64,000 nt of DNA from Acanthochromis polyacanthus (Eukaryota > Chordata > Actinopteri > Pomacentridae), in contig NC_067123.1 in NCBI RefSeq assembly GCF_021347895.1, positions 41,541,527-41,605,526 on the forward strand, given 5' to 3'. Below, piece after piece: positions 5,006 to 36,378 of the stretch (its first letter is position 1; each line of letters opens with the position of its first letter). The position numbers were made by a program, and so were the translations under genes. The notes below the pieces were generated by a model, which was not told the origin of the DNA, did no database searches, and worked only from the letters and a program-made list of their open reading frames with translations.

Positions 5006-5551
5006 GGGCAAACAAGCGGAACAAATGCAACAGGGACCAGTAACGGCACTGATTCGACAAGTTCGACTCCAATGACCATGCCGACGTCCGTCCAAACCTC
5101 CGTCCCCTCCGGCAGCCCACCGACCTCACATGCACCTCCGGCCTCCTCCACCCTCCTAGCTACCACCACCTCATCCCAGGGACCTGTAAACTCCTCTGGG
5201 ACTACTGAAAGCCGTGGAGAACCAGCCTCCACCACTCTCCCAGCTACCACCACCTCATCCCAGGGACCTGTAAACTCCTCTGGGACTACTGAAAGCCGTG
5301 GAGAACCAGCCTCCTCCACCCTCCTAGCTACCACCACCTCATCCCAGGGACCTGTAAACTCCTCTGGGACTACTGAAAGCCGTGGAGAACCAGCCTCCAC
5401 CACTCAGTCGTCCACAGCCTCCACCGGAGGCAGCAGTGCTTCGACGATCTCAGCTACGACGTTACATGGAGGATCTGAAGCTCTGTTTGGAGGCTGCAGT
5501 CAGCTGATGGTGGCCTCCATCTCTGTCCTCATCTACTGGACCCAAGGCTGA
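5006..5551 (+). CDS. GPI-anchored mucin-like glycoprotein, terminal exon (member 1; 5' exon not found)
   Basis: Terminal coding exon of 181 codons plus TGA. The acceptor GTCTTCTACAG ends at 5005. The frame is phase 0, matching the phase-0 intron of members 2 and 3. Mature sequence starts GQTSGTNATGTSNGTDSTSS, rich in Thr/Ser/Pro with NAT and NGT sequons, as in an O- and N-glycosylated stalk. Three near-identical 84-bp (28-aa) repeats occupy 5141-5400 and each carries an NSS sequon. The tail (HGGSEALFGG, then hydrophobic LMVASISVLIYW, ending TQG) resembles a GPI-attachment signal. No known named family is recognised from residues. By architecture and gene order it may be CD52-like. The signal-peptide exon should lie upstream; a Tc1 element fills most of the visible intron. 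Gene reality is fairly sure, homology is not. Confidence 0.72.
   Translation, partial: GQTSGTNATGTSNGTDSTSSTPMTMPTSVQTSVPSGSPPTSHAPPASSTLLATTTSSQGPVNSSGTTESRGEPASTTLPATTTSSQGPVNSSGTTESRGEPASSTLLATTTSSQGPVNSSGTTESRGEPASTTQSSTASTGGSSASTISATTLHGGSEALFGGCSQLMVASISVLIYWTQG
5141..5400 (+). repeat. Three 84-bp in-frame coding repeats
   Basis: Copies begin at 5141, 5225 and 5309. Units are nearly identical (TLLATTTSSQ in copies 1 and 3, TLPATTTSSQ in copy 2), which points to recent expansion inside the coding exon. Confidence 0.9.
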
Positions 5552-5585
5552 AAGAGTGAAATCACAGACTCTGGTTCTGTTTTAC

Positions 5586-5591
5586 ATTAAA
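5586..5591 (+). terminator. Poly(A) signal ATTAAA of member 1
   Basis: ATTAAA variant 35 bp after the stop codon at 5549-5551. It is the nearest poly(A)-like hexamer to the exon. Confidence 0.4.
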
Positions 5592-5599
5592 CCCAAAAA

Positions 5600-7055
5600 T
5601 CTTGTATATGAAAGTTAAAAAGATGGAGCCCTATATTAATACTCTAATGGCTATGAAGTACTTTGTTTGCACTGAGCTCTTTTCCACCTTTTAAACTGTT
5701 GCACAAATATATAGAAGCTACATAAACTCCATATTTTACACGTTAAAGCTTTATTTCTGTCATGAACAGTGAAAGGAAACAAAAAACTGTGTTTTTATGG
5801 CAATTAAAAGGAGAATTGAACTAAGACTCGTCTCTAAATGTGTTCATAAATGTTACATTTATGTTGGGGTCGTTGCATCTCAAATCATCAAGAGGAATCT
5901 AATCAACTCCATCAGATTTTTATCAAAAACTGTGTATTTAAAATGGTATCTGTGAGATTCAAGGTTGATTTATTGAGTTTTTTTATGAGATTATACATTT
6001 TAAAAAGTTGCCAGTTGACCGACTTTCAGCAGATTTTTTCACACAGTGAAATTTGAGGATTTTTTTTAAAGAGCAATATCCCAGGAAATATTAAAGATAA
6101 AGCCCTAAAATGTTCTATTTTTCCATTTTCAAACTTCAGAACTTTATTCTACTTAGATCAGACTATCGACCAATATTTTAGTTTTTGCATTACAACTCCT
6201 CAAACTTGCTAAATCTGTTATGAAAGTTAAACAAAAACTATTTTAGCTCACCAATAATCACAGATTATTTCATCAACTTGTCCAATATTACAGATTCCAA
6301 ACCAATGACATGTTGTTTGATCCTATAAAAACGTAAAATTGGAAGCAAATCAGAGATAAATGTGATGATTTGAGAAAGAGTGAGTCATTTTCAAATCTGA
6401 CAAATGGTTAAATTCTAATTATTGGAAACCGGCAGCCTCAGCCTCATTTGCATGCCGGCCTCGGCAATAAAAAGATAATCCCTTCTATTCAAATGCAGCA
6501 GGCTTGTTTTGCACCATCTTTTGTTTCTCCCTTTGCTCTATTTAGAGATTTTACGACATGAAAACACTTTTTATCTGTATACAATAAAAAATCATGGACT
6601 GAGGAGTGTAATGTCATAAAATAGCAACAATCCGGCTATCTAAAACTCTAAAACTAGTTCACACAATTGAAACAACAGAAACACAATTGGCTGACAGTAC
6701 TTCAATGTATAAGCTTAAAATTACTTTATTTTTGTTCAGAGTAATGTCTTTTATCAACTGAAGACTGCAGCTGCTTTAAATGTTACGCATCAGTTTAATA
6801 AAGTTAAAGATCAGTAACTCTTCTGTGTTTAAAACAATCCTGTAAAGACGTTAGACGTCAGCATTATGTTCCATTTTAGCTGAACCTTTAATGACCGTTT
6901 GTTTCCATGATGCTGGTATTGTTTTTATGAAAAGTATTCACATACAATAAGTACACAGTGCATCTTTGAAACTGATTTTGATTGATTCTGATGCTTTATT
7001 AATTTTAATTCAGAACAAAACAGAAACAAACAACAAAAACTTCACACTTAAAGAC
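5600..7055. other. AT-rich intergenic stretch
   Basis: No exon, RNA gene or repeat family recognised. Only short spurious ORFs occur (for example 5850-6056). Confidence 0.5.
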
Positions 7056-7058
7056 ACA

Positions 7059-8524
7059 CAGTCATGAAAAAATTATCAGACCACCCCTGCTTTCTTCAGT
7101 TTCTTGTTCATTTCAATACTCAGTACAACTAAAGGTACATTTGATTGGACAAAAATAATAACAACAAAAATAACTCATGAGAGTTTAATTTCAGAGCTGA
7201 TATCAAACATTTTCCACTGTTTTCTTGATAATAACCAAACTTCCTTCAGTTCTTCCATCAGCATTGTTCTGCCAAAAAAAGCTTTCAGGATTCCATGTTT
7301 TCTTTTCTGTCTGCTTTAGTCCCATGATCCACACAGGAGTTAGTACTGATTCAGAACCATTGCTCCTGATGTCTCTTCATGCTCTCCACCAGCTTCTGAT
7401 CACAGCAGCCCATTCCTGTTGCACTAATTCTAATTAATCTGCTTTGTTTTTGGGCTTGTGGTTCTCCATTTAGCGTGTGATGATTTTCCACAGGTTTTCA
7501 GTTGGATTTAGATCTGGTGATTGAGCAGCCAAGACGTGGTTCCAGTGTTCTGATTCTCCATCCAGGCTTTAGCTGACCTTTTCTTGTTGGAAAATCCAGT
7601 CATTGGAGGCAGGAAAGAGTTTCTCAGCTGATGGAAGAAAACTGTTTTCTCGAGTAGCCCCAAACATGACCTGGTTCATTTGCCCTGTTCCACCCAGATT
7701 GAAACTACCCCAGATGGTCACTGATCCACCCCCATATTTTACTGTAGGGGCAGACAGTCTGGTTTGGAGCTTCTCCAGGCTTCCTCCTAACCAGTAAGTT
7801 GGCTGAAGTGGGCATCAACTGAAAACTGGATTCATCCCTGAAGAGAACTTTCGTCTAATCATCAACGGTCCAATCCTTGTGATCCCAGCAAAGAGTAACC
7901 GGCTTTCCTCTACCTTTCCTTGATGAAGGGCTTCTTCCTGCCCTGTGTGGCTTCAGACCAGCTTCAACAAGTCGCTTTCCAACTGTCCTTGCCCAACAAG
8001 TCCCATTTCTTCACAGTGTTCACTCATTTTTAAGATCCCTGGAAGTCTGACAGGAACAGATGAGTGACGGTCATCTAGTGGTAGAAAGACGTTTCCTGAC
8101 CAGCTAGCAGTTTGGTGGAACCATGCTGGGCTTGTTTTTTCTTGGTAAAATGAACGGCTGTCTTGGAGATCTTCTTCAGTTTTTTCACTACCTGTCTCTC
8201 ACTCATGATGGCTGTCTTTGTGGCTTCACATAATTCTTTAGTTTTAGGCGTTATGTGAGAGCTGACAACTTGTGAGTTGTGCTACGGTTTGAATGTCAGC
8301 AGGAAACCACTCTAGACCTTTGGATGACATGAAATGTCCTCTTAGATACCCTGGGAATACAATGAAGTCTCAGCATGTCAAATAGGACATAAAGTATGAT
8401 GGAATCAGCTGCATTTATTGTCATGTTCATTGTATTCTTTAGCTAATATACCTTTAGTGGTACCAGACATTAAAATGAACAAGAAATTAAATAAAACAAG
8501 GGTGGTCTAATCATTTTTTTGATC
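7059..8524 (-). mobile_element. Decayed Tc1/mariner-type transposon
   Basis: The ends form imperfect inverted repeats of about 80 bp: left TCATGAAAAAATTATCAGAC, right its near complement at 8504-8524, each continuing with GTACAACTAAAGGTA-like sequence. On the minus strand, transposase debris includes a PTVKYGGGSVTIWG-like box (about 7715-7750) and an SPDLNPTENLW-like box (about 7490-7525) carrying the acidic catalytic region. Stops and frameshifts break it throughout. It is followed directly by a tetranucleotide array. Confidence 0.75.
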
Positions 8525-9151
8525 TATCTATCCATCTATCTATCTATCATCCATCCATCTATCATCCATCCATCATCTATCCATAAATCTATCATCCATC
8601 CATCTATCTATCTATCATCCATCCATCTATCATCAATCCATCTATCATCCATCCATAAATCTATCATCCATCCATCTATCATCCATCATAAATCTATCAT
8701 CCATCCATCTATCATCCATCATAAATCTATCATCCATCCATCTATCTATCATTATCTATCATCCATCCATCATCCATCCATCCATCCATCTATCATCCAT
8801 CCATCCATCCATCTATCATCCATCCATATATCCATCTATCATCCATCCATCCATCATCCATCCATAAATCCATCATCCATCCATCTATCTATCCATCTAT
8901 CATCCATCCATCCATCCATCCATCCATCTATCATCCATCCATCCATCTATCATCAATCCATCTATCATCCATCCATAAATCTATCATCCATCCATCTATC
9001 ATTCATCCATCCATCTATCATCCATCATAAATCTATCATCCATCCATCTATCTATCATCTATCCATCATCCATCCATCTATCATCCATCCATCCATCTAT
9101 CATCCATCCATATATCCATCTATCATCCATCCATAAATCCATCATCCATCC

Positions 9152-9400: not shown

Positions 9401-9919
9401 TATAGTGATAAATAAATAAAAGAGAACTGATGTTGATATTGATTACAGTTTTGTCTTGTTTGGTACGTTTAACATGTTTTAGATTTCTGTGATTTTACTG
9501 GATAAAATATCAATTTATCCTTCATTAATTAATTTCCTTATATGCGTAATTTTCCTTTTAAGTAAGGTGAAGTTTATTTAATATTGTAAAAAGAACACAT
9601 TGCTATCTAGAAAAACACATCTTTGAAGTAGATATTACAGTTTTGGTCTCTTCTTTTTTTTACATTCAACGTGATTTATTGTATATCATTTTGCAAAACG
9701 GGGACAATCTGTGGGAACTGTGAGACATATTCTTGTCATTTCTTGGAAGTGTAGCTGAAGAAACAAAAGAGCTGAGTCCAGGTGTGTCTGACGCTCATAC
9801 CTGGATGGATTTCAAATGCTCCAGGGTGAGATTTTGCATTTGTGGTCCAAGTCCAGGGTGGAGACTGAGGCGATGCTTCCTGGATGGAAACGGGTATCAG
9901 GTGCTCCATGTGAAGACTT

Positions 9920-9925
9920 TATAAA
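9920..9925 (+). promoter_or_regulatory. TATA box of member 2
   Basis: TATAAA within GACTTTATAAAGGACGG. It lies 136 bp before the ATG at 10061, which leaves a plausible 5' UTR of about 105 nt. Confidence 0.6.
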
Positions 9926-10060
9926 GGACGGCCTCCTGAGACTCCTTTGACTGAACCAGGACTGCCAGGTACAGGAGGCGACGGGCTGAGATTCAGACAG
10001 GAAAGACAGGAATAAAAACTGTGATACGACGACTTCAGAGCAAACCGTCTTTCATCCAAC

Positions 10061-10120
10061 ATGAAGTACCTCGTTTTGGAGCTGCTTACCCTCGCCCTGC
10101 TGGGATTTATCTGGGCAAAG
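10061..10120 (+). CDS. GPI-anchored Asn-rich glycoprotein, exon 1 (signal peptide; member 2)
   Basis: ATG in the context CCAACATGA encodes MKYLVLELLTLALLGFIWAK, a classic short secretory signal peptide: Lys, hydrophobic core, small residue before the end. The exon stops after a complete codon (phase 0) at the donor AAG|GTAAAA. The intron (10121-13254, 3134 bp) holds a LINE with a nested SINE and a diverged T/G-rich minisatellite. A TATA box at 9920 supports this start. Confidence 0.82.
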
Positions 10121-10429
10121 GTAAAACACTTTACTCACTAGCTATACACAGTTAATCACTTTTTCTGTTTATTTTTAATATTATTTAACAGTAAATTATG
10201 TCCACAAGTAATTTCTGTTTCATGTTTTTTCCCCAACTTCATAGAAATGCAATGCAAAGAACAAAAATGTAGTAAAAACAACAATAGTGATATAAAAAAA
10301 CTAGCTTGGAAAATCCAAACTGAATCTCCATGTTAGGAGATACAGGAGAATGCATAAATAAAGTCAGTCTGGATTTTCCAGGCAAATAAAAAACAACTAT
10401 TTCCTCATTCCTTTATCTCTACAAACATC

Positions 10430-11702
10430 ATGGTAGTGTGGTCTAACACGTCACAAGAAAATATAAAAAAGTTGCAAATTGTACAAAATAGAGCAGCAAG
10501 AATCGCTTTGCATTGCGGTTACAGAACAAACATTATAGCCATGCACAAGTTTGGGCTGGCTATTGGTTAAGGAAAGATTATTGTATTCATTGCTGGTTTT
10601 CTTTAGAAACATTTTAATTACAAAAAAAAACATCAAGCTTGTATAAAAATGTATATTTTAGTTCAGCTAGGCATAGCTATGCAACCAGACATGCTACCAG
10701 AGGAAATTTTACAGTACCCAAATCAAACACAAATACAATTAAACAAATGGTTCTGTACAGAGCTATGCAAGAACGGAATAAACTACCAGAAAACATTACA
10801 CAAGAAAATAGCAACATAATTTTCAAGAAGTTAAGCAAAAAACATCTGTGCACAATAGAGACTTAATATAGGTCAATTGGAAGTACACGTATTACTTAAA
10901 ATTGCACCTTCGCTACTGAAATAGTTCTAGCGAGATGAATAGTAAAAGAATGGGTGACTGTCAAATCTGATTTAAATTTAATTGTTAAATCGGGTTAATT
11001 TGGGGTTTGTGCTTCAGTGGAGTTGGGTGTAATATCAAAGGGCAAAAGAAATTTGAGTTTTGTGTGACCAATATACATAATATATGTAGATCTGTGTAGA
11101 TATGATGATATGTAAATACTATACATCACTGCTGACCTGGGGGGCTGCACACTGACGTAGTGGTTAGCACTTTCGCCTTGCAACAAGAAGATCCCTGGTT
11201 CGATTCCCGGGGTGGGCCTGGGATCTTTCTGCATGGAGTTTGCATGTTCTCCCTGTGCATGCGTGGGTTTTCTCCGGGTACTCCGGCTTCCTCCCACAGT
11301 CCAAAAACATGCTGAGGTTAATTGATCACTCTAAATTACCCGTAGGTGTGAATGTGAATGTATTTGTTTGTCTGTATATGTAGCCCTGTGACAGACTGGT
11401 GACCTGTCCAGGGTGTCCCCTGCCTTCACCCGAGTCGGCTGAGATAGACTCCAGCACCCCCCATGACCCTAGAGAGGATAAAGCGGTGTATAGAGAATGG
11501 ATGGATGGATGGATGCTGACCTGGGAGCGGTCTTGTATTGTCGTGTTGTGTATTTTTTGTGTTTTATGTTGCATTTGTATAGGGATTGTATTGTAAGTGA
11601 TGCAACTGCACTGACACATTGTAAAGATTTTGTATGGACCCCAGGAAGAATAGCTTTGGCATTGCCATAGCTCATAGGGATCCAAATAAATCAAATCAAA
11701 TG
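10430..11702 (+). mobile_element. 3' end of a non-LTR retrotransposon (LINE)
   Basis: Plus-strand debris reads LQIVQNRAARIALHCGYRTN, the region after the RT domain in CR1/jockey-type LINEs. It continues with a 75-aa remnant (10639-10866, TRHATRGNFTVPKSNTN ... MQERNKLPENI), the usual C-terminal end of such pol proteins. A 3' UTR follows, ending TATGGACCCCAGGAAGAATAG ... GGATCCAAATAAATC with a short AATC-type tail. A SINE is inserted in the UTR at 11142-11514. Stops and a frameshift interrupt it. It lies in intron 1 of member 2. Confidence 0.75.
11142..11514 (+). mobile_element. tRNA-derived SINE with 11-bp target duplication
   Basis: The 5' part has RNA polymerase III boxes: A box TAGTGGTTAGC (about 11158) and B box GGTTCGATTCC (11197-11207). 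A conserved body follows (GGAGTTTGCATGTTCTCC, CTCCGGCTTCCTCCCACAG, CCTGTCCAGGGTGT). It ends in an (ATGG)n tail. The direct repeat GCTGACCTGGG lies on each side (11131-11141 and 11515-11525), a clean target-site duplication inside the surrounding LINE. It is a widespread teleost SINE type. Confidence 0.88.
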
Positions 11703-12539
11703 GTATAATTGAAGAATTCAATAAAACAGTGACTGAGGAACTGAAAAATCATAAATAAATGCCATGAAGAAACACCAGACCACAACTAGTTATAATTTAG
11801 ACAAAGAAAATAAGACAATTATAATAATAGGTAAATAGATAAGAGGAATGAATGAAGAAAAACTGTTTTAAAAATGGTAATAATTGAATAAAATCAATGA
11901 AAAGCTAGACTAAAGGTAGGCTTTGAGTTTACATCTTTAAATATCAACACTTTTTAAAAAACTAATTCCAATATATGTATTTTGCTGACAAATATTTTTC
12001 TATTATCCTTTAAGTTTTAACACTAAATTTTACAGTTTTTGTGTTTTTAATAATTACATCACAATATATGAATATAAGAATATAAGAAACAAAGAACAAA
12101 AATGGAGTAAAAAAACAATTAGAATAATAAAATTAACCAATATTCACAACCCTGTATCTCGACAAACAACATGAAAGACTCAACAAAACAGGAAGTAAGG
12201 AATTTAAAAAATCATAAATAAAAGCAATGAAGAAACACCAGACCAGGATTAGTAACAACAAGACAATAATAATATAAAAAATATGACTAAAGATAGATGA
12301 CAATACAATAAATAGAGAAATAAACGAATAAAATATGTTTTAAAAATGTCAATAATTCAATAAAATCAGCCAAAAGCCAGACTAAAGGTAGGTTTTTAGT
12401 TTGCTTCTTTAAATATCAACACTTTTTTAAAAAAACAAATTCCAATGTATGCATTTTATTTACAAGCATTCTTAAAATATGTATTCTGTGTTCTAATGCT
12501 GCTGTTCTGAACCGTCTCAGTGACAGTGATAGAGGTTTG

Positions 12540-12940
12540 AGTGCTTTTGTGTAGATTTTGCTTCTTTTCATAAAGGTTTTGTCTGTTTTTTGTGAAGAGT
12601 TTGTTGTTTATGTTAACATTTTGTTTTTGTTGAAGATTTGTGTGTTTTTGAGGAGATTTTGTGTCTTTTTGTGAAAATTTTGTGTATTTTAGCGCAAGTT
12701 TTGTGTCTTCTATGTTGAGGTTTGTGTGTTTGTTGACGATTTGTGTGTTTTTGTGGAGATTTTAGGTCTTGTGTAAGGGTTTTGGATCTTTTTGGAAAAT
12801 GTTTGTCTCTTTTATGTGAACATTTTGTGTCTTTTGTGGTGGTTTTGTCTCTTTTTCTTGAGGTGTTTTGTTTTTCTGTGAAAGTTTTGTCATTTTTGTG
12901 GTGGTTTCATGTATTTTTGTGGTTATATTGTGTAGTTAGA
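12540..12940. repeat. Diverged TTTTGTGTxTTTTTG-type minisatellite
   Basis: About 400 bp of degenerate repeats around TTTTGTG, TGTGTTTTTG and similar, in intron 1 of member 2. A similar T-rich array is at 29945-30250. Short ORFs here are low-complexity artefacts. Confidence 0.7.
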
Positions 12941-13254
12941 TTTTTCAAATATTTTTTTTTTAAAGCAGACAATGGGAAACAAACAAATACACACCTTGAA
13001 TTTGTAGTTTTAGCTTCTTAGGGTTTAAAAAAGCCACAAAAATGATTACATTTCTTTCATAAATTATAAAAAGTCTTGAATAAATTGAGATAAATGAGCC
13101 ACCAAATTATTTGTCACAGTAAAATATCAGCATTTTTACAGTGTTGGTTTTAAATTTGCCATTTATTTGACAGTAAACACACAACATTAACCTCTGTGGA
13201 ATCAGACATGACAGAGTTTTATGTCATAAATCAATGTCTCTGTCTTCTTTTTAG

Positions 13255-13584
13255 GAAAACACAGTGAAACCAGATGAAGCAATGACTACCAATAACTCCA
13301 CCAATACGACCTCGACAGGCGAAGGCAACGGAGACGGCGACGACACTGGAGGCAACAACAGCAATGGTGGCAACAACAGCAATGGTGGCAGCAACAGCAA
13401 TGGTGGAAACAACAGCAATGGTGGTAACAACAACGACAACGGCAACAACAACAGTACCAACTCCAATGGAACCCAGACCACAAAGGCCCCCCAGGACATG
13501 ACCATGAAGAACGGACAGAACCACGCCTTCACCTCCATCCGTCTGCTGCTGGGATGCTTTGTTCTCGGAGCTCTTTGGCTGTGA
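13255..13584 (+). CDS. GPI-anchored Asn-rich glycoprotein, exon 2 (member 2)
   Basis: The acceptor TTCTTTTTAG ends at 13254 and the exon continues in phase 0 (ENTVKPDEAMTTNNSTNTTS). It encodes 109 residues plus TGA; with exon 1 the precursor is 129 aa. The ectodomain is Asn/Gly/Ser-rich with about five copies of an 18-bp unit (GGNNSN, about 13350-13435) and about ten N-x-S/T sequons, so it should be densely N-glycosylated. The C-terminus (NGQNHAFTS, then RLLLGCFVLGALWL and stop) is a good GPI signal: small residues, short spacer, hydrophobic end with no cytoplasmic tail. Two-exon layout, phase, size class and tail match members 1 and 3. The protein is not recognisable by residues; CD52-like is an inference. 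The minus-strand ORFs here are shadows. Confidence 0.82.
   Translation, partial: ENTVKPDEAMTTNNSTNTTSTGEGNGDGDDTGGNNSNGGNNSNGGSNSNGGNNSNGGNNNDNGNNNSTNSNGTQTTKAPQDMTMKNGQNHAFTSIRLLLGCFVLGALWL
13350..13440 (+). repeat. 18-bp coding minisatellite in member 2
   Basis: Repeats of GGCAACAACAGCAATGGT give GNNSNG units, each adding an N-glycosylation sequon. Confidence 0.85.
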
Positions 13585-14044
13585 GCGCGACAACGCCATT
13601 TACCATGCTGCAAATCCAAACCAAGTTTTGAGAGTAGAAAATTCTAATATAAATATGTAACAATGCTTTATTTCCATAGCACCTTTCAGAAACAAGCGCT
13701 GTAGAGTTAAAAATGAGCCATATGATGATTGAAGTGAGTCATAAGATGGGATTCGAGTGCGGAAATTAATGAGATCTCCAATCGGAAAGTAGCAGAAAAA
13801 TCCTAACATCAACTCTAAAACTCAGGCAATCAGTGAAGTGTAATAGGAATCAAGGTGTGTGTTGAAAACCTGTCAGCAGAATTTTAAATTAAGTGCACTG
13901 TCAAAAAAACAACAACTGAAAAGCAAACAAAAGAAACCTCTGTGAAAAAACTGTGAGAAAATAGCAGCCAGAGTTCCAGGAAGAAAAATCTACTAAAAAA
14001 AACAGGAGAAAAAACTGTGAAATTGCAGCATACATATTTACTCT

Positions 14045-14540
14045 ACCGCTCAAAAGTTTGGGGTCACTTAGAAATGACTTTATTGTTGAAAGAAAAGCAA
14101 TTTTCATCTTTATCTTACATATCTTCTTATATGTCTTAGAAATTTTGGACAAGCTGAGTGATTTTGGGTCAATTTGGACTAAATCTGGGTTATTTTGGAC
14201 AGATGACAAGTCGAAATTGTCTAATAAATGGAACCTTGTCTGGTCAAACTTTCCTCACATCAGATTCTACTGATGTTAGAGCCTCAAAAGTTGGTGAAAT
14301 GTCAACCAAAGACTGTATTTTAGTAGAAACATGGATCCATCCATATAAACTACTGTTCAAAGGTTTGGGGTTGCTTAGAGGTGTCCTAATTTTTGAAAGA
14401 AAATATGTGTTTTTCAATGAAGATAACATTAAATGAATAATACATCCAGTCTAGACATTGTTAATGTGGTAAATGACTATTCTAGCTATACTAATTATTA
14501 TCTGTAATTTAGGGACAGTCTAGCTAAGTTGTTGAAAAAA
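14045..14540. mobile_element. Non-autonomous Tc1/mariner-type repeat
   Basis: CGCTCAAAAGTTTGGGGTCA (14048) and CTGTTCAAAGGTTTGGGGTT (14353) are two copies of the terminal motif of a very common vertebrate MITE. They are followed by TTGAAAGAAAAGC-type sequence and AAATGACTATTCTAGCT near 14475. There is no coding capacity. Confidence 0.55.
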
Positions 14541-14649
14541 GTCCAATACCATTTTTTGCAGTGTGCAGTCTTTGGATGATAAAATAAAATGCAATAAAAT
14601 AATCAACTCTAGAGGAAATGAAAGCATGAGAAATGAAAGGAGAGATTGT

Positions 14650-23044: not shown

Positions 23045-23049
23045 GAGTC

Positions 23050-27040: not shown

Positions 27041-27109
27041 CTCGTGTCATTGATTAGCTATCTTCTGGCTGCTTTTGTTCTAAAAGAGTTTAGAGTTCAT
27101 CATTAAGAT

Positions 27110-27590
27110 CTATATGTTACCATTAACTAACCAGACAACCATCCAACCAATCAACCAACCAACCAGACAACCATCCAACCAACCAACCAACCAACCAACC
27201 AACCAGACAACCATCCATCCAACCAACCAATCAACCAACCAATCAACCAACCAGACAACCATCCAACCAATCAACCAACCAGACAACCATCCAACCAATC
27301 AACCAACCAGACAACCAACCAACCAATCAACCAACCAGACAACCAACCAACCAACCAGACAACCATCCAACCAACCAACCAACCAGACAACCATCCATCC
27401 AACCAACCAATCAACCAACCAATCAACCAACCAGACAACCATCCAACCAATCAACCAACCAGACAACCATCCAACCAATCAACCAACCAGACAACCAACC
27501 AACCAATCAACCAACCAGACAACCGAACAACCAACCATACAATCATCTAACCAACCAGACAACCATCCAACCAACCAACCACTTGTTCAT
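27110..27590 (+). repeat. CCAACCAAT/CCAGACAA minisatellite (possible remnant coding exon)
   Basis: About 480 bp of CCAACCAAxCAACCAACCAGACAACCAT units with 140-150-bp higher-order copies. An open frame (27114-27668, 184 aa) reads [18 protein letters not shown] and similar, with many NQT/NQS sequons, ending [17 protein letters not shown] phase-0 acceptor candidate TTGTTCTAAAAG ends near 27085. It occupies the position of member-3 exon 2. It may be a fourth ectodomain or simply a microsatellite; the C-terminal hydrophobic stretch is weak for a GPI signal. Confidence 0.4.
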
Positions 27591-27699
27591 TATAAAAATA
27601 CAGAGTCATCCTCCAGTTTGACCGACTATCTCCTCTGTTGTTGCTCAAGTGTCTTGGAGGTAACATGAAACTCTTGAAATTCTCTAAGTTCAGCCAATT

Positions 27700-28450
27700 T
27701 TTTTACATAACTTAGTTTCCTGAGCCAAATAACAAACACAGACTGACCCACATGTGTGAGGTCTCATAAATATAAAATTAAACTAATAAAGACAGGACGG
27801 TTGTTATAAAAAACTGCAAGGAGGCCGGTGAGCCTAATTGTCATTGTTTTTTTTTAATTCATATAATAAATAACAATATATAGTGTAAGGATAAACAGGC
27901 TTTATCTGATCTATCAATCTATCTAAAACACCATAAAACTCTGATTAGATTTGATCACTTGCAAAGTTTATATGCTGTCACTAGTTTGATCATATGGCAA
28001 AATAACACAGCGACCTATTTTCAGGCTGTCAATTGTCCACCATAGTGAATGATTTTCCGTTTATGATTTTTTTATAACTACTTCAATTCATCGGACCCAG
28101 TCCTGCACAGGCTGATGAGTTTACATGAGGTTAGCTTGGTACAAGAAGGTTCAAAATCAAACCAATCATCAGCTTTACAGAATCAATGAAACAATGAAAT
28201 ATTTGTGCAAAAGGGAAGCAGTATTTCAGAATTTGAGCCCTCACTGAGTGTTGCTTTAATTATAATGTAATATAAAGTTTGAAGCTAGTTAGGAAATCCC
28301 TTCAACTTTAGGCCTGTATATTCTGATACAAAAAGAGTCAAACTGAGTCTAAAGAGACTGGTTTCCTCAATGAGTAGGGTGATAAATAAGCGCTCGATAG
28401 CCTCAAAGGTTCCCTGAGGCAGCATACCATTCAAACATATAGGAATGTGT
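27700..28450. other. AT-rich intergenic stretch
   Basis: No gene or known repeat recognised. Confidence 0.4.
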
Positions 28451-28456
28451 GAACAA

Positions 28457-29168
28457 CCAACCCGGTCTCACGGGGATTCGTGAAACTGTCACGTAAGTTT
28501 TAGTTTCGGTTTCGTGCGCACCAACACGATTTCGTCATGTTTTTCGTGCCGCTCACCACGAAATGTTTTTCGCTGTGGTAATCCAACACGGTCTCACGGG
28601 GATTCGTGAAACTGTTACGTAAATTTTTTGTTTCTTTTTCGTGCGCACCAACACGATTTCGTCATGTTTTTCGTGCCGCTCACCACGAAATGTTTTTCGT
28701 GTTGCTCACAACGAAACCCGCTGTGGTAATCACAGCTGAAAGTGGTTTATACCAGCGGATTCATGACGATCTAAGCTGTCCATCGGCGTATACTGCTTGT
28801 GTGATCGCGTTTGCGGCCGCCGGCCGCCGGACATTCTTGAAATTCCTATGCAAATTGGTAAGTGTACCACCGGCTTATGGTTAGGTTATGGTTAGGTTAT
28901 GGTTAGGATTATGGTTAGGGTTATGTTTAGGGACGATGTCATGCAAAATATAGCGTTGGATTCGCCATGGTTTTACATTAAAAATATAATACACACATTC
29001 GTTTGAAATACGTTCTGGGTGGCACGAAAAGTCCGCCGTTTAAAATACATTGGTGCGCATTTCGTGGTGAGCGGCACGAAAAACATGACGAAATCGTGTT
29101 GGTGCGCACGAAACCGAAACAAAAATTTACGTAACAGTTTCACGAATCCTCGTGAGATCGGGCTGGGT
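28457..29168. mobile_element. Fold-back repeat with duplicated left arm
   Basis: The left arm CGGTCTCACGGGGATTCGTG ... CGTGCGCACCAACACGATTT occurs twice in tandem (about 28460-28580 and 28585-28710). It occurs once inverted at about 29042-29165. The middle holds a GGTTATGGTTAGG run (28876-28930). A direct repeat GCTGAAAGTGGTTTATACC / TCTGAAAGTGGTTTATACC lies at about 28735 and 29176. It is CpG-rich with no transposase, so probably a non-autonomous DNA element. Confidence 0.65.
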
Positions 29169-29169
29169 A

Positions 29170-29820
29170 ATCACATCTGAAAGTGGTTTATACCGGAACA
29201 ACATGCGAGGGGGTTGTTGTAATACCAGCTCCGGTCTATAGAGGCGCTGTTGAACAGGAATATTGTGACTCTCACATGTGATGGACCATTTTTGGCAAAA
29301 ATTAAAAATATTCCCCATAATGTTTCGTACATACTTTTGGCATGATTGAAAGCATGACCAAGAGGTGAAGAGAAAAATGTCCCCTGTTGGCATGGCGGAC
29401 TGGTGTTGGCGAGTGTTTAACGGATGGTGAGGACCCCGATTAGATAGGGAAGCAAAACCACACACGCCAAAAAAAAAAATCTGCCCTAAAGCTGTTATAT
29501 ATTAAAATCATTTTTCACTTTTACTGATTAATTTATTTTAACCAACATCAGTCCTGATCACAATTACCAAATATTTATTAATTATTCTGAATTTCCTTCT
29601 TTTAATTCTTTAAATTGGTCATTGAAGTGTAAAATTGTAATGCGACAACAGCAGATATATGTAAAAATCATGACACACTAATCTGATTTCAATACTGTTG
29701 TAATTTCACAGTCACACATTGTAAGGGAACAAGTTACTATTTAACTACAGTGTGTTTTTCTGTATTTTTTACCAGTTATATATAATTTAACAAAATGGAA
29801 ATAATCTGTAAATTAACAGG
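29170..29820. other. Intergenic stretch, nothing recognised
   Basis: Only an unsupported minus-strand ORF (29127-29465) overlaps the end of the fold-back repeat. Confidence 0.35.
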
Positions 29821-30250
29821 GTTTTTTTTTTTTGGGGGGGGGGGGGTATTTATTGATTGATTGATTGATTTACTTATTTATTTTCACCATTTATCAGTCC
29901 TTAACCCTCCTGTTAGTTTAGATTTTCAGGAACACCGATGCTATCAGTTTGACCCGGAATCCATTTTTGTTGTTTTTTGTCTTTTTTTTGTCATTTGTCT
30001 CATGTTTTTGTCATTTTGTGTCTCATTTTTATAAGATTTTGTCTTGTTTTCATTGTTTTTTGGTCTTTTTTGTTATGTGTCCAGTGCTTTTGTGGTTTTA
30101 TGTCTCATTTTTGTAAGATTTTGTCTTGTTTTTGTTGTTTTTTGTCTAATTTTTTTTGTTTTTGGTCTTGTTTGTTGTTTGTTTAATGTTTTTGTCGTTT
30201 TGTGTCTCATTTTTGTCATTTTTTTCTTGTTTTTTGTCTGACTTTTTCAT
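29821..30250. repeat. T/G homopolymer runs, ATTG tetramers and TTTTGTC-type minisatellite
   Basis: Poly-T then poly-G (29822-29846), (TTGA)n (about 29854-29870), then degenerate TTTTTGTCxTTTTGTGTCTCA repeats to 30250, akin to the array in member-2 intron 1. Confidence 0.75.
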
Positions 30251-30259
30251 TTTGAGCTT

Positions 30260-31620
30260 AAAGTAAAATCCTCTGTGGTTCACAGTCTTTGTCGACACTG
30301 TGATCTGGAAGTTGTAATGTGGAACTTATAAACTGAGACAATGATAATTCTTCATAAATTTCAGGATGTTCATAATGTTTATTAAAAAGATAATCCCTTA
30401 AATGTGAACATTACTGCAGTAAAACAAAGGAACCATTAGGAGTTGTGGTTATTTAGATTTGGTAGGTTAGGTAGATTAAATTCTACCTTTATTCTGCTGT
30501 GGTTTTACTGGTTTTACTGGTCCACTGGAGATCAAACTGGACTGGATGTGGAACCTGGACTAAGAAGAGTTTGGCTCTCCTGGTTTACAGTTTTGGACTT
30601 TTTTTAATGTTTAATATGTAAGTTAACACTAACTGTACCAAAACAACAGGACAGAAACATGAAATCATCGATGGTGTGTTTTGTTGGTGCCACACATACA
30701 GACAGTAATCAGTCCAGGTGTCATGTGATAACAAAATGAAAGAGAGATTAAACTTATAATGGACCTGATAGAAGCTTTTGTTGTGCTACAAACACCCAAA
30801 TGACGGACTACAACTAACCTCTTACAAAACAGCAAAGACTCAGATATGTTTAGACATTCTTCAGGTTGGAAGAACGCAAATGTTGACTGTATTATCGGAA
30901 GATAAACTTAGAATAAATGTGCATTATAAAGGAGTGAGTCAGCTAGGACTTCACCAGAGCCATCATTTTGTTGTATTGTCGAGCTCTGGTCCCATGGTGT
31001 TGTTTGTCAGTGGCTCAACACTGTTTTGTTGTTATTGGAGGGCTCTTAAGAATGAGATCCAGTGTCTCAGTGAGAGTACCTGCATAAATAAAGGTCAAAA
31101 AAGAATAAAAAATCTGCCAAAGCACACTGAAAAGTCATAAAACTCTACTGAGCCACAACTCGGCCGTAAAATCTTTGACCTTGGCTCTGCAGAACCAATT
31201 GTCCCGTTAAAGGAAATTACATTGTCTCATATGTGTTTGTCATGCTGTCAATTATCCACCAGAACGGGGTGAATAATTCTCCATTTCTGACTAAAATACA
31301 ACTCTTTCAATCCATGGAGCTCAGTTGTACAGGTCAGTGTGTTCATGCAAGCTCAGAAGGAAGTTTGTGCTTTAAAGGTTGCAAATTACTCCAATTATCG
31401 ACTTCTCATTCCAACAGAACATTCTCCATCACGTTGACTTCATAAAACAGCCACATATCTGAGCAGTGTTGCAGAAAGGGAAGTGGTTATAATTCATACT
31501 TCCCAGAAAGAGGCAATGACTGACCAGCACCATAAAAACTCTGTATGTGTGTACGTGTCCCCCTTTTTATGCTTTTTATGTCCTTTATGCCTGTGTTTGC
31601 TGTGATGATAGAATCTGGAG
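30260..31620. other. Upstream region of member 3
   Basis: 30680-30790 is paralogous to 15345-15480. No exon found; the ORF at 30778-31140 lacks recognisable features. Confidence 0.45.
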
Positions 31621-31628
31621 CACTTTAA

Positions 31629-32319
31629 AGGGGAACTTCGGTTTTTTTCAACCTGGGGTCTGTTTCCATATGTAATTTCATACATGTGAGTGATGGAGAA
31701 ATTAATTTTCAACATAGCTCCAGTATTTAGCCAGGCAGGCAGCTTAGTAGCTCAGCTAGCAGCTCAGCTAGCGAAAAGCATGGGGCAGCTGGCCCCCCCA
31801 CGTCAAAGTCCGCCCTAACGTGCTTTTTTCCCCCACACTGACCGGCTCGGATAGTCTCAACGAGTGTCCCACAACATACTAGAGATGAGAAGTGAACGAA
31901 AACCTCCACATTACCTGGCGATCGCTCTTTGTTGTGGTCTGTATCTAAGCGAGCTCTCGCGCGATTTCAGAACGAGATTTGCTTTCTAGCGTCCTGAGAT
32001 TTGGATACAGACCACAACAAAGAGCGATCGCCAGGTAATGTGGAGGTTTTCGTTCACTTCTCATCTCTAGTATATTGTGGGACACTCATTGAGACTATCC
32101 GAGCCGGTCAGTGTGGGGAAAAAAGCACGTTAGGGCGGACTTTGACGTGGGGGGCCAGCTGCCCCATGCTTTTCACTAGCCGAGCTGCTAGCTGAGCTGC
32201 TAAGCTACCTGCCTGGCTAAATACTGGAGCTATGTCGAAAATTCATTCCTCCATCACTCACATGTATGAAATTACATATGGAAACAGACCCCAGGTTTGA
32301 AAAAATCCGAAGTTCCCCT
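31629..32319. mobile_element. 691-bp palindromic MITE flanked by TTAA
   Basis: The sequence begins AGGGGAACTTCGG and ends in its complement, with TTAA on both sides (31625-31628 and 32320-32323). The two halves are reverse complements almost throughout (for example CCAGGTAATGTGGAGG), with a spacer of about 80 bp at 31940-32010. TTAA targets are used by Kolobok and piggyBac transposases. The short ORFs in it (31727-31909, 32001-32195) are mirror images of one another and not genes. Confidence 0.85.
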
Positions 32320-32537
32320 TTAATACTTTAACATTTAACGTTTATTGTTAAATGTTTGTCTTGATTCTTAAATTGTATGTATGGGCGGTGTAATCTCATG
32401 GACCGCAAAACAAATTTACCCACGGGTATAAATAAATAACTTGAACCTGTTTGATTGCTTTAATTCAACATTGGGCTTCCTGGATCCGGGTCCAGATCCA
32501 GGATCTCACGCCTACCTCCTGAAATGAGATGCTTTGG

Positions 32538-32545
32538 CATAAAAG
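32538..32545 (+). promoter_or_regulatory. TATA-like box of member 3
   Basis: CATAAAAG within TTTGGCATAAAAGCCC, 116 bp before the ATG at 32654. This spacing is similar to member 2 (136 bp). Confidence 0.45.
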
Positions 32546-32653
32546 CCCAAAGAAAAAAAGTTTCCCGTTAGTTTGTCAGAAGCAGAAGTTGGCCGAACGC
32601 AACAGGAGAAGTGTCACAGAAAACTCGTGTACGGTTTTATCTCTGCATCCATC

Positions 32654-32707
32654 ATGAAGACCTCGGCTTTGGGAGTTTTTACTGTAGCTCTGGTGGCATT
32701 CACACAG
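32654..32707 (+). CDS. GPI-anchored repeat glycoprotein, exon 1 (signal peptide; member 3)
   Basis: ATG (CATCATGA) encodes MKTSALGVFTVALVAFTQ, a secretory signal peptide. The exon ends on a full codon (phase 0) at CAG|GTACCT. Its length (18 codons) and phase parallel member 2 exon 1 (20 codons, phase 0). The intron is 32708-35181 (2474 bp) and contains a 541-bp palindromic element, a CA/TA microsatellite and diverged minisatellite. Confidence 0.8.
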
Positions 32708-33139
32708 GTACCTGATCATTATCTCTTAAAATGACCGTACTAGAGATGCTCTGTGTGAATTTAATCAATTAATTACTCAATATGTAACTGTCCTGAAAGT
32801 TTTCTTTTGTGGTTTAATAGATTTTAAGAGGCCAGAAGGTGTTATTTATTATTATATTCTCTTCTAATAGTGATGATTCCGATTCAGTATACTGCTGGAA
32901 TTGTCTATGCATGACTGTTTGACATTTTTTGCTTTAAAAAGCAAACACCCACGATAGCTCAAGAAGCTTTCAAAACTATTTGCTGATTATACTGTGGTAA
33001 CACTAGAAGTACAGATGAAAATTACCATGTGGGTCATTCCACAATTGGACATCAAATTCAAATTCAAATAATCCATGTACAAAATACTAAAATATGCAGT
33101 TGTTGTGTAAATGTACTTGTCCTGATTGTCCTGGGCTTA

Positions 33140-33680
33140 CCGGGCTTTGCAAAAGTTCTGTTACACGGTTTCATGATCTTTAGAGACGTTTACATGTCGG
33201 AGTGAAAAATTCCTTTAAACAAACTGAAAGTTCTACCTTATAGGCAGGTGTCATTAATACAAATTGTTCTCCGTTGAAGTTGTATCAAGATAGAAGTCAA
33301 AAGAGTTGAGATATCTGCTCTCCTTTGTGCTGAACATCAGCTGGATGACCGTCCACAGAGTTGCGGAGAGGCTCAAGAATGGTGAAGATCTTTCAGGTCT
33401 TCACCATGATGAAGACCTGAAAGACTCTGTGGACGGTCATCCGGCTGATGTTCAGCTGGTTGGCTTTGTCAGACCTGTTGTGGCCAGCACAAAGGAGAGC
33501 AGATATCTCAACTCTTTTGACTTCTATCTTGATACAACTTCAACGGAGAACAAATTTGTATTAATGACACCTGCCTATAAGGGAGAACTTTCAGTTTGTT
33601 TAATGGAATTTTTCACTCCGACATGTAAACTTCTCTAAAGATCATGAAACCGAGTGTAACAGAACTTTTGCAAAGCCCGG
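33140..33680. mobile_element. Palindromic MITE with TA target duplication
   Basis: Ends CCGGGCTTTGC and GCAAAGCCCGG, with TA at 33138-33139 and 33681-33682. Both arms carry the same segment in opposite orientation. The plus strand near 33340 reads WMTVHRVAERLKNGEDL, similar to the N-terminal helix-turn-helix of mariner-like transposases. It seems to have arisen as an inverted duplication of a transposon end. In the intron of member 3. Confidence 0.7.
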
Positions 33681-33685
33681 TATAT

Positions 33686-33687
<2 letters not shown>

Positions 33688-33736
<49 letters not shown>
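33688..33736. repeat. CA/TA microsatellite
   Basis: (CA)n followed by (TA)n directly after the palindromic element. Confidence 0.95.
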
Positions 33737-33739
<3 letters not shown>

Positions 33740-33741
<2 letters not shown>

Positions 33742-34385
33742 GCAATGTTTTGGACTAATTCTAAGTAGATTTGGATGGCTTTTCAATCATTTAACTAATT
33801 GACTAATTTAACTAATTTCCCATGTATTTCAGACAAGTTTTTAATCATTTTGGATGAATTTGGAGTTATTTAGGACAAATTTCACGTCATTTGGATCAAG
33901 TATCAGCTCAGAAAAGAAATATATCACGGTATTTTGGACAACTGGATGAATTTTGGACAAATTCTAAATGGTTCAAGTCATTTGGATCTAATTTCGACTC
34001 ATTTCACATGCACTTAGATTAGATGAATTTTGAATCCCTTGGATGAAATTGGAGTTATTTAGGATAAATTTCAAGTCACTTGAAATATGTATCAACTCAA
34101 AATAAAAATATTTCAAGGGATTTTGGACAACTGGATGGGTTTGCGATCAATTTTAAGCAGATTTGAGCGAGTTTCAAGTCATTTTGGACTATTTGTGACT
34201 CATTTTACATGTATTTAGATGCATTTTGAGTCATTTTGGATGAATTTTGAATAGTTCAGAACAAAGTCATTTAAAACAAGTATCAGTTCAAAATGGAAAC
34301 ATTTCAAGGCATTTAGGACAATTGGATGTGTTTTGGGGAAATTTTAAGTAGATTTGGAAGCGTTTCGAATAGTTTCGGATTAATT
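33740..34385. repeat. Diverged TTTTGGAC/AAGTCATTT minisatellite
   Basis: Degenerate units around TTTTGGACAA, AAGTCATTTGGAT and GGATGAATTTTGA across about 640 bp of intron. The same motif family recurs at 36840-37070 and 38720-39010. Confidence 0.65.
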
Positions 34386-35181
34386 TGAAAGTATTTTTTA
34401 AAATATCAAATAAGTCTGGAGGTCCCTCTAAAATGCAATCTTTCTCTTGCCCCACCCCCTAGATGACCAAATTGAATCTCTTTTTGGTAACATTCTTTTC
34501 ACTGACGTCTCCTATAATTGTGGGAACATTTTTTTAATCAACATAATATTTTAGATAATTATTATACATGGAACATGTGTCCCACAACATGTTAACATAA
34601 CCTTGTGTCTTGTTTTAGTCGTTTTGTGTCGTTGTCGTTTACGTCTTCAAACAGTTTTCCTAAAGAATCTTTTCATCCATTGTCAGCCTTGATTGGAAGT
34701 CTCACTCTACCTCATATTATCAGGATCAGACTCATTCTTTGGACTGTTTTCCATCAGTCAGTTTGTCCTCTTGGTCAGCAGTAACAGCTAGCTAAATATC
34801 TAGCTTCTACTGCTGAGAAAAAGATCACATTAGCATGGATTAGAGTAGGGTTAGCAAACACAGAAAACATGGAATAAAAATGCTACCATTGATATGGAAG
34901 CTGAGTCAATGAATACCTATTATTGATCAATGTGGAACAGAAAACTGGAAAAGAGAAAATTTATTTATAAGCATTTTGAAGCCCAAATGTCCTCCAATTC
35001 TGGAAAGACCCACCAACAGTTATCCTGGTAGTGACTGAAACAAATCATGAGAAACAACTATCGAGACAGAAAGCAGGAATGTTGTTGGAACAGACGCTAC
35101 TGCTTCTGAATACTCACTGAAATTATTGTTTTTTGTTCTTTTTCTGATCAACTGTGTCCGGAACGACCGCGACTCTGATAG

Positions 35182-36378
35182 ACTGCAATCGCAGATTCGA
35201 CCACCAGACCGGCAAACACAACTGTCAACCCAGCTGGCAATGTCACTGTCAACGCAACCACTGTCAACCCAGCCGGCAATGTCACTGTCAACGCAACCAC
35301 TGCCAACCCAGCCGGCAATGTCACTGTCAACGCAACCACTGTCAACCCAGCCGGCAATGTCACTGTCAACGCAACCACTGTCAACCCAGCCGGCAATGTC
35401 ACTGTCAACGCAACCACTGCCAACCCAGCCGGCAATGTCACTGTCAACGCAACCACTGTCAACCCAGCCGGCAATGTCACTGTCAACACAACCACTGTCA
35501 ACCCAGCCGGCAATGTCACTGTCAACGCAACCACTGCCAACCCAGCCGGCAATGTCACTGTCAACGCAACCACTGTCAACCCAGCCGGCAATGTCACTGT
35601 CAACGCAACCACTGTCAACCCAGCCGGCAATGTCACTGTCAACGCAACCACTGCCAACCCAGCCGGCAATGTCACTGTAAACGCAACCACTGTCAACCCA
35701 GCCGGCAATGTCACTGTCAACGCAACCACTGTCAACCCAGCCGGCAATGTCACTGTAAACGCAACCACTGTCAACCCAGCCGGCAATGTCACTGTCAACG
35801 CAACCACTGTCAACCCAGCCGGCAATGTCACTGTCAACGCAACCACTGTCAACCCAGCCGGCAATGTCACTGTCAACGCAACCACTGCCAACCCAGCCGG
35901 CAATGTCACTGTCAACGCAACCACTGTCAACCCAGCCGGCAATGTCACTGTCAACGCAACCACTGCCAACCCAGCCGGCAATGTCACTGTCAACGCAACC
36001 ACTGCCAACCCAGCCGGCAATGTCACTGTCAACGCAACCACTGTCAACCCAGCCGGCAATGTCACTGTCAACGCAACCACTGTCAACCCAGCCGGCAATG
36101 TCACTGTCAACGCAACCACTGTCAACCCAGCCGGCAATGTCACTGTCAACGCAACCACTGTCAACCCAGCCGGCAATGTCACTGTCAACGCAACCACTGT
36201 CAACCCAGCCGGCAATGTCACTGTCAACGCAACCACTGTCAACCCAGCCGGCAATGTACCTGTCAATGCAACCACTGTACCGATGGCTGCTACTACAAAA
36301 GGTGGCGTCTCGGCGGTGAGAGCCTCGGCGTTGTTTCCTGTGGTGCTGTTGTTGTTGTTCCACCAGCTCTGCCAGTGA
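35182..36378 (+). CDS. GPI-anchored N-glycan-rich repeat protein, exon 2 (member 3)
   Basis: The acceptor GACTCTGATAG ends at 35181. The exon runs in phase 0 for 398 codons plus TGA, giving a 416-aa precursor with exon 1. There is no ATG until near the end, so ATG-based ORF searches miss this frame. It begins TAIADSTTRPANTTVNPAGN, then about 26 copies of a 13-residue unit, NATTVNPAGNVTV, each with two sequons (NAT, NVT), predicting more than 50 N-glycans plus Thr for O-glycans. The tail TTKGGVSAVRASALFPVVLLLLFHQLCQ (shown in parts: TTKGGVSAVRASA, then LFPVVLLLLF) is a good GPI signal. AATAAA follows at 36404. Glycan-repeat proteins such as fish egg hyosophorins are an alternative comparison, but they lack this tail. 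Function is unknown. Confidence 0.8.
   Translation, partial: TAIADSTTRPANTTVNPAGNVTVNATTVNPAGNVTVNATTANPAGNVTVNATTVNPAGNVTVNATTVNPAGNVTVNATTANPAGNVTVNATTVNPAGNVTVNTTTVNPAGNVTVNATTANPAGNVTVNATTVNPAGNVTVNATTVNPAGNVTVNATTANPAGNVTVNATTVNPAGNVTVNATTVNPAGNVTVNATTVNPAGNVTVNATTVNPAGNVTVNATTVNPAGNVTVNATTANPAGNVTVNATTVNPAGNVTVNATTANPAGNVTVNATTANPAGNVTVNATTVNPAGNVTVNATTVNPAGNVTVNATTVNPAGNVTVNATTVNPAGNVTVNATTVNPAGNVTVNATTVNPAGNVPVNATTVPMAATTKGGVSAVRASALFPVVLLLLFHQLCQ
35220..36258 (+). repeat. 39-bp coding minisatellite, about 26 copies
   Basis: The unit ACTGTCAACCCAGCCGGCAA plus AACGCAACC-type remainder is 13 codons long. Changes are few: GTC/GCC at one Val/Ala codon, GTC/GTA, and one GCA/ACA. No indel is seen, so all frames stay open on both strands. 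Confidence 0.95.

Follow-up and report, generated by a model that had tools for sequence, protein, structure and literature searches.

The question raised by this locus is whether a small tandem gene family, located near a CRYBG-type gene of Acanthochromis polyacanthus, holds the place that CD52 has in mammals. Analyzing a window of 64,000 nucleotides of chromosome C11 together with its surroundings, three small genes (M1, M2 and M3) were found in tandem on the same strand. We consider it probable that these genes encode secreted, GPI-anchored, densely glycosylated low-complexity proteins and that the array is the teleost occupant of the mammalian CD52 slot. The features of the array, read directly from the DNA, are the following (window positions).

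-1860 to -1798 (C11:41539666-41539728), plus strand: M1 exon 1, signal peptide MKMTEMFEVLLTFLMLLSCTQ, 1.8 kb beyond the window edge
5006 to 5551, plus strand: M1 terminal exon, 181 codons and stop, with a homologous tail in the protein P0121
5141 to 5403, plus strand: 84-bp (28-codon) repeat of M1, 3.1 copies by repeat detection
9920 to 9925, plus strand: M2 TATA-like box, -141 from the ATG
10061 to 10120, plus strand: M2 exon 1, signal peptide MKYLVLELLTLALLGFIWAK, phase-0 donor
13255 to 13584, plus strand: M2 terminal exon, 109 codons and stop, precursor with 9 sequons
32539 to 32545, plus strand: M3 TATA-like box, -115 from the ATG
32654 to 32707, plus strand: M3 exon 1, signal peptide MKTSALGVFTVALVAFTQ, weak phase-0 donor
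35182 to 36378, plus strand: M3 terminal exon, 398 codons and stop, 27 units of a 39-bp repeat
36404 to 36409, plus strand: AATAAA 3' of the M3 stop

All three genes follow a common plan, with a Ser/Thr/Asn-rich ectodomain in a phase-0 terminal exon and a hydrophobic tail running to the stop. Signal and terminal exons alternate on one strand (3 + 3), and every junction is in phase 0. The first-pass annotation had proposed this shared plan, including signal exons for members 2 and 3 and repeats of 84, 18 (M2) and 39 bp; exons, joins and coordinates were recovered as described, and repeat detection returned the same three units. Exon 1 of M1 comprises 21 codons ending in ...SCTQ, and its donor CAG/GTAAGA obtained the top donor score among the listed candidates. 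Four candidates for this exon inside the window (1-5005) were rejected in favor of the exon at -1860, three of them lying in a Tc1 element and one having a poor donor. TATA-like boxes of M1, M2 and M3 were found at -61, -141 and -115, respectively. The precursors measure 202 (M1), 129 (M2) and 416 (M3) residues and contain 5, 9 and 54 sequons, with two N-glycan sequons in each M3 repeat unit. The tails reach hydropathy values of 2.35-3.02 over 11 residues and are devoid of D, E, K and R in the last 11, which agrees with the GPI-type C-terminus predicted earlier. An Rfam search of the window gave no match at gathering scores.

The abundance of such structures by chance was estimated with a filtered scan of 264 kb on both strands, using thresholds chosen after M1-M3 were already known. 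Four stretches passed, three of them being M1-M3, and these alone had at least 5 sequons. In 20 dinucleotide shuffles a total of 19 passes was counted (mean 0.95), none with at least 5 sequons. M3 passes the scan because the filter was loosened (acceptor pyrimidines from 0.6 to 0.45, composition from 0.45 to 0.42, sequons from 2 to 1, nearby-AG check dropped). Using the stricter filter for the window only, 2 of 124 candidate exons passed, namely those of M1 and M2. M3, and perhaps the others, might be chance open frames, i.e., a stop-free GC-rich minisatellite followed by a hydrophobic stretch and never expressed. The 39-bp array of M3 is stop-free in several further frames, so its openness by itself is no proof of a gene; the splice sites of M3 score poorly (1.4 bits for the donor, a pyrimidine value of 0.50 for the acceptor), and no annotated homologue was seen among 1,589 candidates for M2 or the best 8,000 for M1 and M3 combined. 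However, the elements of M3 follow one another in the correct order, from TATA-like box and signal exon to the tail and the poly(A) signal, and a second assembly copy of the array retains an identical tail and signal exon, with a length change of whole units that keeps the frame. We therefore regard chance frames as very unlikely.

The two assembly copies of the array, A (in the window) and B, are located 37 Mb apart on one chromosome, and the frames of M1, M2 and M3 are open in both. The 39-bp units of M3 number 27 in copy A versus 30 in copy B, corresponding to 54 versus 60 sequons. Further paralogues of M1 or M3 besides these copies were not found in the genome. Identity between A and B amounts to 98.9-99.6% in the core and falls to 94.5% and 83.8% toward the left end of A, where a med30 exon is frame-shifted. 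The remaining med30 was found only via B, while the annexin start and the crybg2 end were found only via A. The distance between the copies would fit a true recent segmental duplication, giving the fish six genes, rather than two haplotypes. This is unlikely in our view, as the core identity, the decay at the left end of A and the splitting of med30, annexin and crybg2 are what two contig ends yield when they overlap without being merged and one is misplaced.

Beyond M3 the following genes were identified.

40315 to 52378, minus strand: annexin A2/A14-like gene, intact, with 12 coding exons, separating the array from crybg2
55515 to 55603, minus strand: last exon of crybg2, end of the ricin-B domain and stop
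56784 to 56943, minus strand: ricin-B exon of crybg2
61023 to 61181, minus strand: ricin-B exon of crybg2

The array is thus convergent with a crystallin/ricin-B (crybg) gene, as had been claimed, but the direct adjacency claimed with it did not hold, since the annexin gene (52378-40315) lies between them. Human CD52 and CRYBG2 are convergent, too. The crybg gene is read as crybg2 rather than crybg1 or crybg3 because its chromosome also carries a Prdm1-like gene (at 3.72 Mb). On the other side, med30 and not ubxn11 is the neighbor beyond M1. Pieced together across the two assembly copies, the order would be Prdm1-like – crybg2 – annexin – M3–M2–M1 – med30. Published gene orders place crybg2 next to prdm1b/znf683 in the species studied (PMC7662092) and give the mammalian list order as LIN28A-ZNF683-CRYBG2-CD52-UBXN11 (PMC12587522). 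Except for the annexin, the fish order resembles mammalian ZNF683–CRYBG2–CD52.

A CD52-like place and plan of M1-M3 is therefore supported; homology in sequence, which the first-pass annotation had left to inference, was not found. The Pfam CD52 family (PF15116) had no match in the M1 and M3 terminal exons and full M2 at E up to 0.1, nor in full M2 and repeat-trimmed M1 and M3 at E up to 10. As a control, human CD52 matched PF15116 at 3.6e-9, and the CD24 model likewise found human CD24. Searching the whole genome with the CD52 profile (E up to 10) yielded 14 matches, none of them in the array. One match at C16:2.58 Mb (27.3 bits, cut-off 27) was taken as chance because of an internal stop and the lack of a gene-like frame. 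None of the M1, M2 and M3 tails beat shuffled sequences in comparison to the CD52 tail (p 0.15, 0.58 and 0.40). Low-complexity stretches of the three proteins gave sub-cut-off Pfam matches to unrelated families. In a database of 5.8 billion proteins, a composite M1 and M3 query (E up to 10) matched a single protein among the best 8,000 candidates scored, the M1 homologue P0121, with 17/29 identical residues in the anchor region (E 1.2e-6); for M2, none of 1,589 candidates reached E 0.001. Titles and abstract openings of the literature on fish CD52/CD24 and on the exon structure and synteny of these genes revealed neither a teleost CD52 nor this array. The M1, M2 and M3 tails showed no significant likeness to one another, and descent from a single ancestor consequently rests on plan and tandem position.

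With zero sequence match to CD52, M1-M3 may be real GPI-type glycoproteins unrelated to it, a lineage-specific family that arose in, or was inserted into, the junction of the annexin and med30 blocks, the place of CD52 beside CRYBG2 being a coincidence. The array is flanked directly by annexin and med30, and anxa2, med30 and ext1c are reported to stand together beside one salmonid prdm1b copy (PMC7662092). The SH3BGR family, used as a marker of the CD52 side, had five matches in the genome, none by the array, and the only one on C11 lies at 20.8 Mb. Against such an origin, the array shares the side and the convergent orientation of CD52 relative to crybg2, and its two-exon phase-0 plan equals that of human CD52. 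We rate a lineage-specific family as quite possible, with chances somewhat below even; common descent of M1-M3 with CD52 is inferred.

Alternatively, M1-M3 could belong to the CD24 lineage or to an ancestor of CD24 and CD52, these two being old duplicates beside CRYBG1 and CRYBG2. CD24 lies beyond CRYBG1, in convergent orientation. The tail of M3 scored 46 against the human CD24 tail (shuffle mean 24.7, p 0.0045), a value that is borderline because 15 comparisons were made, and human CD24 versus CD52 gave p 0.0125. By sequence, the M3 tail thus appears closer to CD24 than to CD52 and may weakly resemble the former. However, M3 versus CD24 yielded E 0.30 in BLASTP, the M1 and M2 tails gave p 0.21 and 0.87, and the Pfam CD24 family (PF14984) had no match in M1-M3. 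Genome-wide, seven weak CD24 profile matches all stayed below the cut-off of 27 (best 22.7 bits, outside the array), and the open frames there look unrelated. We rate a CD24 lineage as improbable. A broader scenario, rather doubtful as a whole, would make CD24 and CD52 duplicates of the early vertebrate genome doublings, each 3' of a CRYBG gene. Teleosts would have kept the crybg2-side ancestor and multiplied it in tandem; its 12-residue glycan peg would have become rods of polymorphic length bearing 54-60 N-glycan sites, making it a glycocalyx gene that varies between individuals.

Returning to the preferred reading of a CD52-slot array, expression, anchoring, glycosylation and function of M1-M3 can be outlined as predictions. 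Exon 1 would supply the signal peptide, exon 2 would form a disordered stalk with N-glycans and probably O-glycans, and a GPI anchor would replace the hydrophobic tail. Like those of CD52 and CD24, the peptide would mainly serve to present glycans. The resulting charged glycocalyx may block adhesion, and ligands for sialic-acid-binding lectins may be offered on leukocytes, epithelium or germ cells. The coding minisatellites would fix stalk length and glycan number, with whole-unit changes leaving the frame intact, and their length differences would form a natural series of stalk lengths. CD52 is a drug target and CD24 an immune checkpoint, and the origin of both is hard to trace: their peptides are so short and so loosely constrained in sequence that standard homology searches do not suffice. 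If fish do have a positional counterpart, this origin and the basic job of glycan display would become testable there. The single relative (P0121) retrieved from 5.8 billion proteins, among the best 8,000 scored in the M1 and M3 search, suggests how such genes elude annotation.

Comparing the array with known systems, M1-M3 resemble CD52 (CAMPATH-1 antigen, HE5), an antigen of lymphocytes and of epididymis and sperm, in their signal exon, low-complexity ectodomain, predicted glycosylation and GPI-type tail, and in two coding exons whose phase-0 junction falls within the signal peptide or directly behind it, as in human CD52. They are also convergent with the crybg2 gene, on the side away from ZNF683/prdm1b, given the deduced order and crybg2 identity. 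Unlike CD52, they lack a PF15116 match, contain coding repeats, have precursors of 129-416 residues where CD52 has a mature peptide of 12 residues, and occur as three genes, with an intervening annexin and with med30 in place of UBXN11 beyond the array. With CD24 they share the predicted nature of GPI-anchored Ser/Thr-rich glycan carriers, and the M3 tail, ATTKGG...AS.LF.VV.L.LL.H, may resemble that of CD24 (the borderline p 0.0045), but they differ in the missing PF14984 match, the repeat-built stalks and the place at crybg2 rather than crybg1. Human MUC1 is a mucin-type VNTR glycoprotein with a transmembrane segment and mainly an O-glycan motif. Like such VNTR glycoproteins, M3 contains a coding minisatellite whose copy number varies between copies with the frame kept; unlike MUC1, it has a GPI-type tail for the transmembrane segment and two N-glycan sequons per unit for the mainly O-glycan motif.

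Three putative small GPI-type glycoprotein genes (M1, M2, M3), each with a signal exon and a terminal exon, were found in tandem. The first-pass annotation had described three same-strand members with a common plan, and plus strand, coordinates and phase-0 joins, the latter alike in all three, were confirmed. The M2 and M3 signal exons lie where they had been placed; that of M1 had been missed because it sits outside the window, and was also found (negative positions are left of the window start; a slash marks a splice site):

5006-5551, plus strand: M1 terminal exon, acceptor ...ttctacag
-1860..-1798, plus strand, outside the window: M1 signal exon, MKMTEMFEVLLTFLMLLSCTQ, then the donor CAG/GTAAGA
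10061-10120 joined to 13255-13584, plus strand: M2 exons
32654-32707 joined to 35182-36378, plus strand: M3 exons

M1 has a predicted precursor of 202 residues with 5 N-glycan sequons, M2 one of 129 residues with 9, and M3 one of 416 residues with 54. Using an approximate matrix, the M1 donor scored 7.1 bits, the top score among the candidates listed, and the M3 splice sites were weak, at 1.4 bits for the donor and a pyrimidine fraction of 0.50 for the acceptor. TATA-like boxes were found upstream of the ATG at -61 (M1), -141 (M2) and -115 (M3), and ATTAAA or AATAAA follows the stop after 35 bases in M1, 26 bases in M3 and only at 639 bases in M2. The M1 intron holds a Tc1/mariner element (3298-4934; 216-bp inverted ends, 97%; 368-aa open frame), and elements about 99% like it lie near -65 kb and +86 kb. 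Judged from sequence, the working plan of the predicted products is most likely a signal peptide, a disordered glycosylated stalk and a GPI anchor. By analogy, the peptide would be a scaffold holding glycans on the outer membrane, and repeat number would set reach and glycan count of the putative stalk. CD52 is a short human GPI-anchored glycan carrier. According to PMC9630641, its sialic acids are said to cloak the surface of primate sperm. An anti-adhesive and lectin-ligand role of the same kind may be envisaged here for blood, mucosal or germ cells.

Candidate terminal exons were filtered with thresholds chosen after the members were seen. The filter required a phase-0 AG acceptor, an ectodomain rich in Ser/Thr/Asn/Pro/Gly, one or more sequons, and a hydrophobic tail free of charges that ends at the stop. 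In 264 kb on both strands it was passed by four stretches, namely M1, M2, M3 and one on the minus strand, which overlaps an annexin exon but is read in a different frame. In twenty dinucleotide-preserving shuffles there were 19 hits altogether, none with five or more sequons. Using a stricter filter (two sequons, composition 0.45, acceptor 0.6 without another AG close by) 2 of the 124 candidate exons of the window passed, M1 and M2; M3 was admitted by the looser set only. The open frame of the 39-bp array of M3 is weak evidence, because several other frames besides the coding one are open too. The whole is a well-formed tandem array; each part is ordinary by itself, but their combination and location are unusual. 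A composite M1 and M3 query found one database protein, P0121 (192 residues, E 1.2e-6, best 8,000 candidates scored); for M2 no protein was found at E 0.001 among 1,589 candidates. The P0121 anchor region, ISSTTTKGGSAPLFGFCSQLLVFAVTILI, is identical to that of M1 at 17 of 29 positions, and both genomic frames share LLQ/GQ at the acceptor (M1 GLLQ/GQTSG; P0121 FLLQ/GQGTT, acceptor by reading); the M1 tail is therefore conserved in another sequence. The P0121 frame continues past the tail, possibly through a contig fault. Ectodomain matches to unrelated families, of M3 to PCF11_RFEG_rpt (6.7e-9) and of M2 to GRP and New_glue (about 0.004), lay below curated cut-offs and were taken as low complexity.

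The array had been described as next to a CRYBG-type gene. Such a gene is present nearby; direct adjacency needs correction, because an annexin gene separates it from M3:

52378-40315, minus strand: complete annexin gene, 12 coding exons, GT-AG at junctions by reading
Right of the annexin gene, minus strand: last three exons of the CRYBG gene, together a ricin-B domain (E 7.8e-11)

The annexin product matches annexin structures and Pfam Annexin. It shares 95% identity with an annexin A2 of Amphiprion ocellaris and 86% with a Stegastes partitus protein; some of its fish relatives are named annexin A14. This single protein suggests that the DNA comes from a damselfish (Pomacentridae) or a near relative. 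Further to the right lie stretches with beta/gamma-crystallin matches, both below the curated cut-off (E 1.2e-4 and 0.029). An annexin intron holds a hAT element at 46265-47784, with a Pfam hAT dimerisation match at 46265-46621; for 46888-47784, which matched nothing significantly, the hAT assignment is by reading only. A 21-bp unit, repeated 156 times and open in several frames, fills 56968-60232 in an intron between ricin exons, and a 43-bp minisatellite (47 copies, 62010-64000) extends to the window edge. At 37100-38700, an element with a THAP-like tail lies between inverted copies of a CTGTTTGAGAATCTAGCGGAAGT-like sequence (both by reading); the two stretches tested gave no Pfam match.

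The array occurs twice on chromosome C11 of the window's own assembly (G000), as copy A in the window (C11:41541527-41605526), which falls in the final 168 kb of C11, and as the inverted copy B, read over C11:4066001-4112000. Identity was 98.9% at window -7052..8767, 99.6% at 9576..17662 and 23045..36278, and 99.4% at 35218..43204. Toward the left end of A it drops to 94.5%, then 83.8%, and past about -15.6 kb, where only short pieces of B were compared, no match was seen. The ricin exons, the annexin first exon and its upstream region were found in A only, so the likeness stops between 43.2 and 53.1 kb. We take the copies to be haplotype contigs that overlap but were left unmerged, one of the two being misplaced; that the pattern reflects a true duplication appears rather unlikely. 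The med30 exons lie beyond M1 in copy B (C11:4118010-4124798), and copy A is accompanied by the first med30 exon only and a second that looks frame-shifted (by reading). Another med30 exon set was observed at C11:5098752-5151686, 1 Mb from the first. A Prdm1-like gene, the third-best zinc-finger match at 68% identity (next matches 44-51%), lies at C11:3724476, some 0.34 Mb away from the stretch of B that was read. According to PMC7662092, crybg2 adjoins prdm1b in all species studied and znf683 in human and mouse, and anxa2, med30 and ext1c accompany one salmonid copy. That paper and the Prdm1-like placement suggest that the CRYBG gene is crybg2 rather than crybg1 or crybg3. Given overlapping haplotype contigs, the order would be Prdm1-like, crybg2, annexin, M3, M2, M1, med30. 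The join left of copy A at about -15.6 kb is likely a misjoin; beyond it on C11 are Vps52 exons, a RING1/RNF2-like stretch (by reading) and V-set immunoglobulin exons.

Between the copies, the M2 terminal exon is identical, while that of M1 shows 2 synonymous and 3 amino-acid differences. In M3 the number of units is 27 in A, with 54 sequons, and 30 in B, with 60 sequons; no unit breaks the frame, and the two copies share the same signal exon and tail. Between aligned blocks (17662-23045), A has 5.4 kb with a copia-type LTR retrotransposon (4.1-kb, 1,364-aa open frame) versus 1.5 kb in B, where the element is therefore not whole. Whole-genome searches found M1, M3 and the M2 intron/exon stretch in A and B only.

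Of the proposed CD52-like locus, likeness in plan and place held, likeness in sequence did not. The Pfam models of CD52 and CD24, another such human carrier, recognise the human proteins and matched none of M1-M3, and no tail stood out against CD52 in shuffle tests, nor did M1, M2 and M3 tails against one another (p 0.85, 0.16, 0.12). Suggestive among 15 pairs tested were M3 versus CD24 (p 0.0045), CD24 versus CD52 (0.0125) and M3 versus P0121 (0.042). Of the 14 matches from a whole-genome CD52-profile search, none lies in the array, which leaves the odds for CD52 unchanged because the missing Pfam match was already counted. One candidate, C16:2582429-2582548 on chromosome C16 (27.3 bits, 0.3 over the cut-off of 27; E 0.0046), has a stop inside and looks like chance. 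The array is a plausible, though unproven, counterpart of CD52 by position. It resembles CD52 by plan and place; in cattle, PMC12587522 lists LIN28A, ZNF683, CRYBG2, CD52, UBXN11, SH3BGRL3 and CEP85 in sequence, and, with list order assumed to be map order, CD52 there lies between CRYBG2 and UBXN11, whereas the array here lies between annexin and med30.
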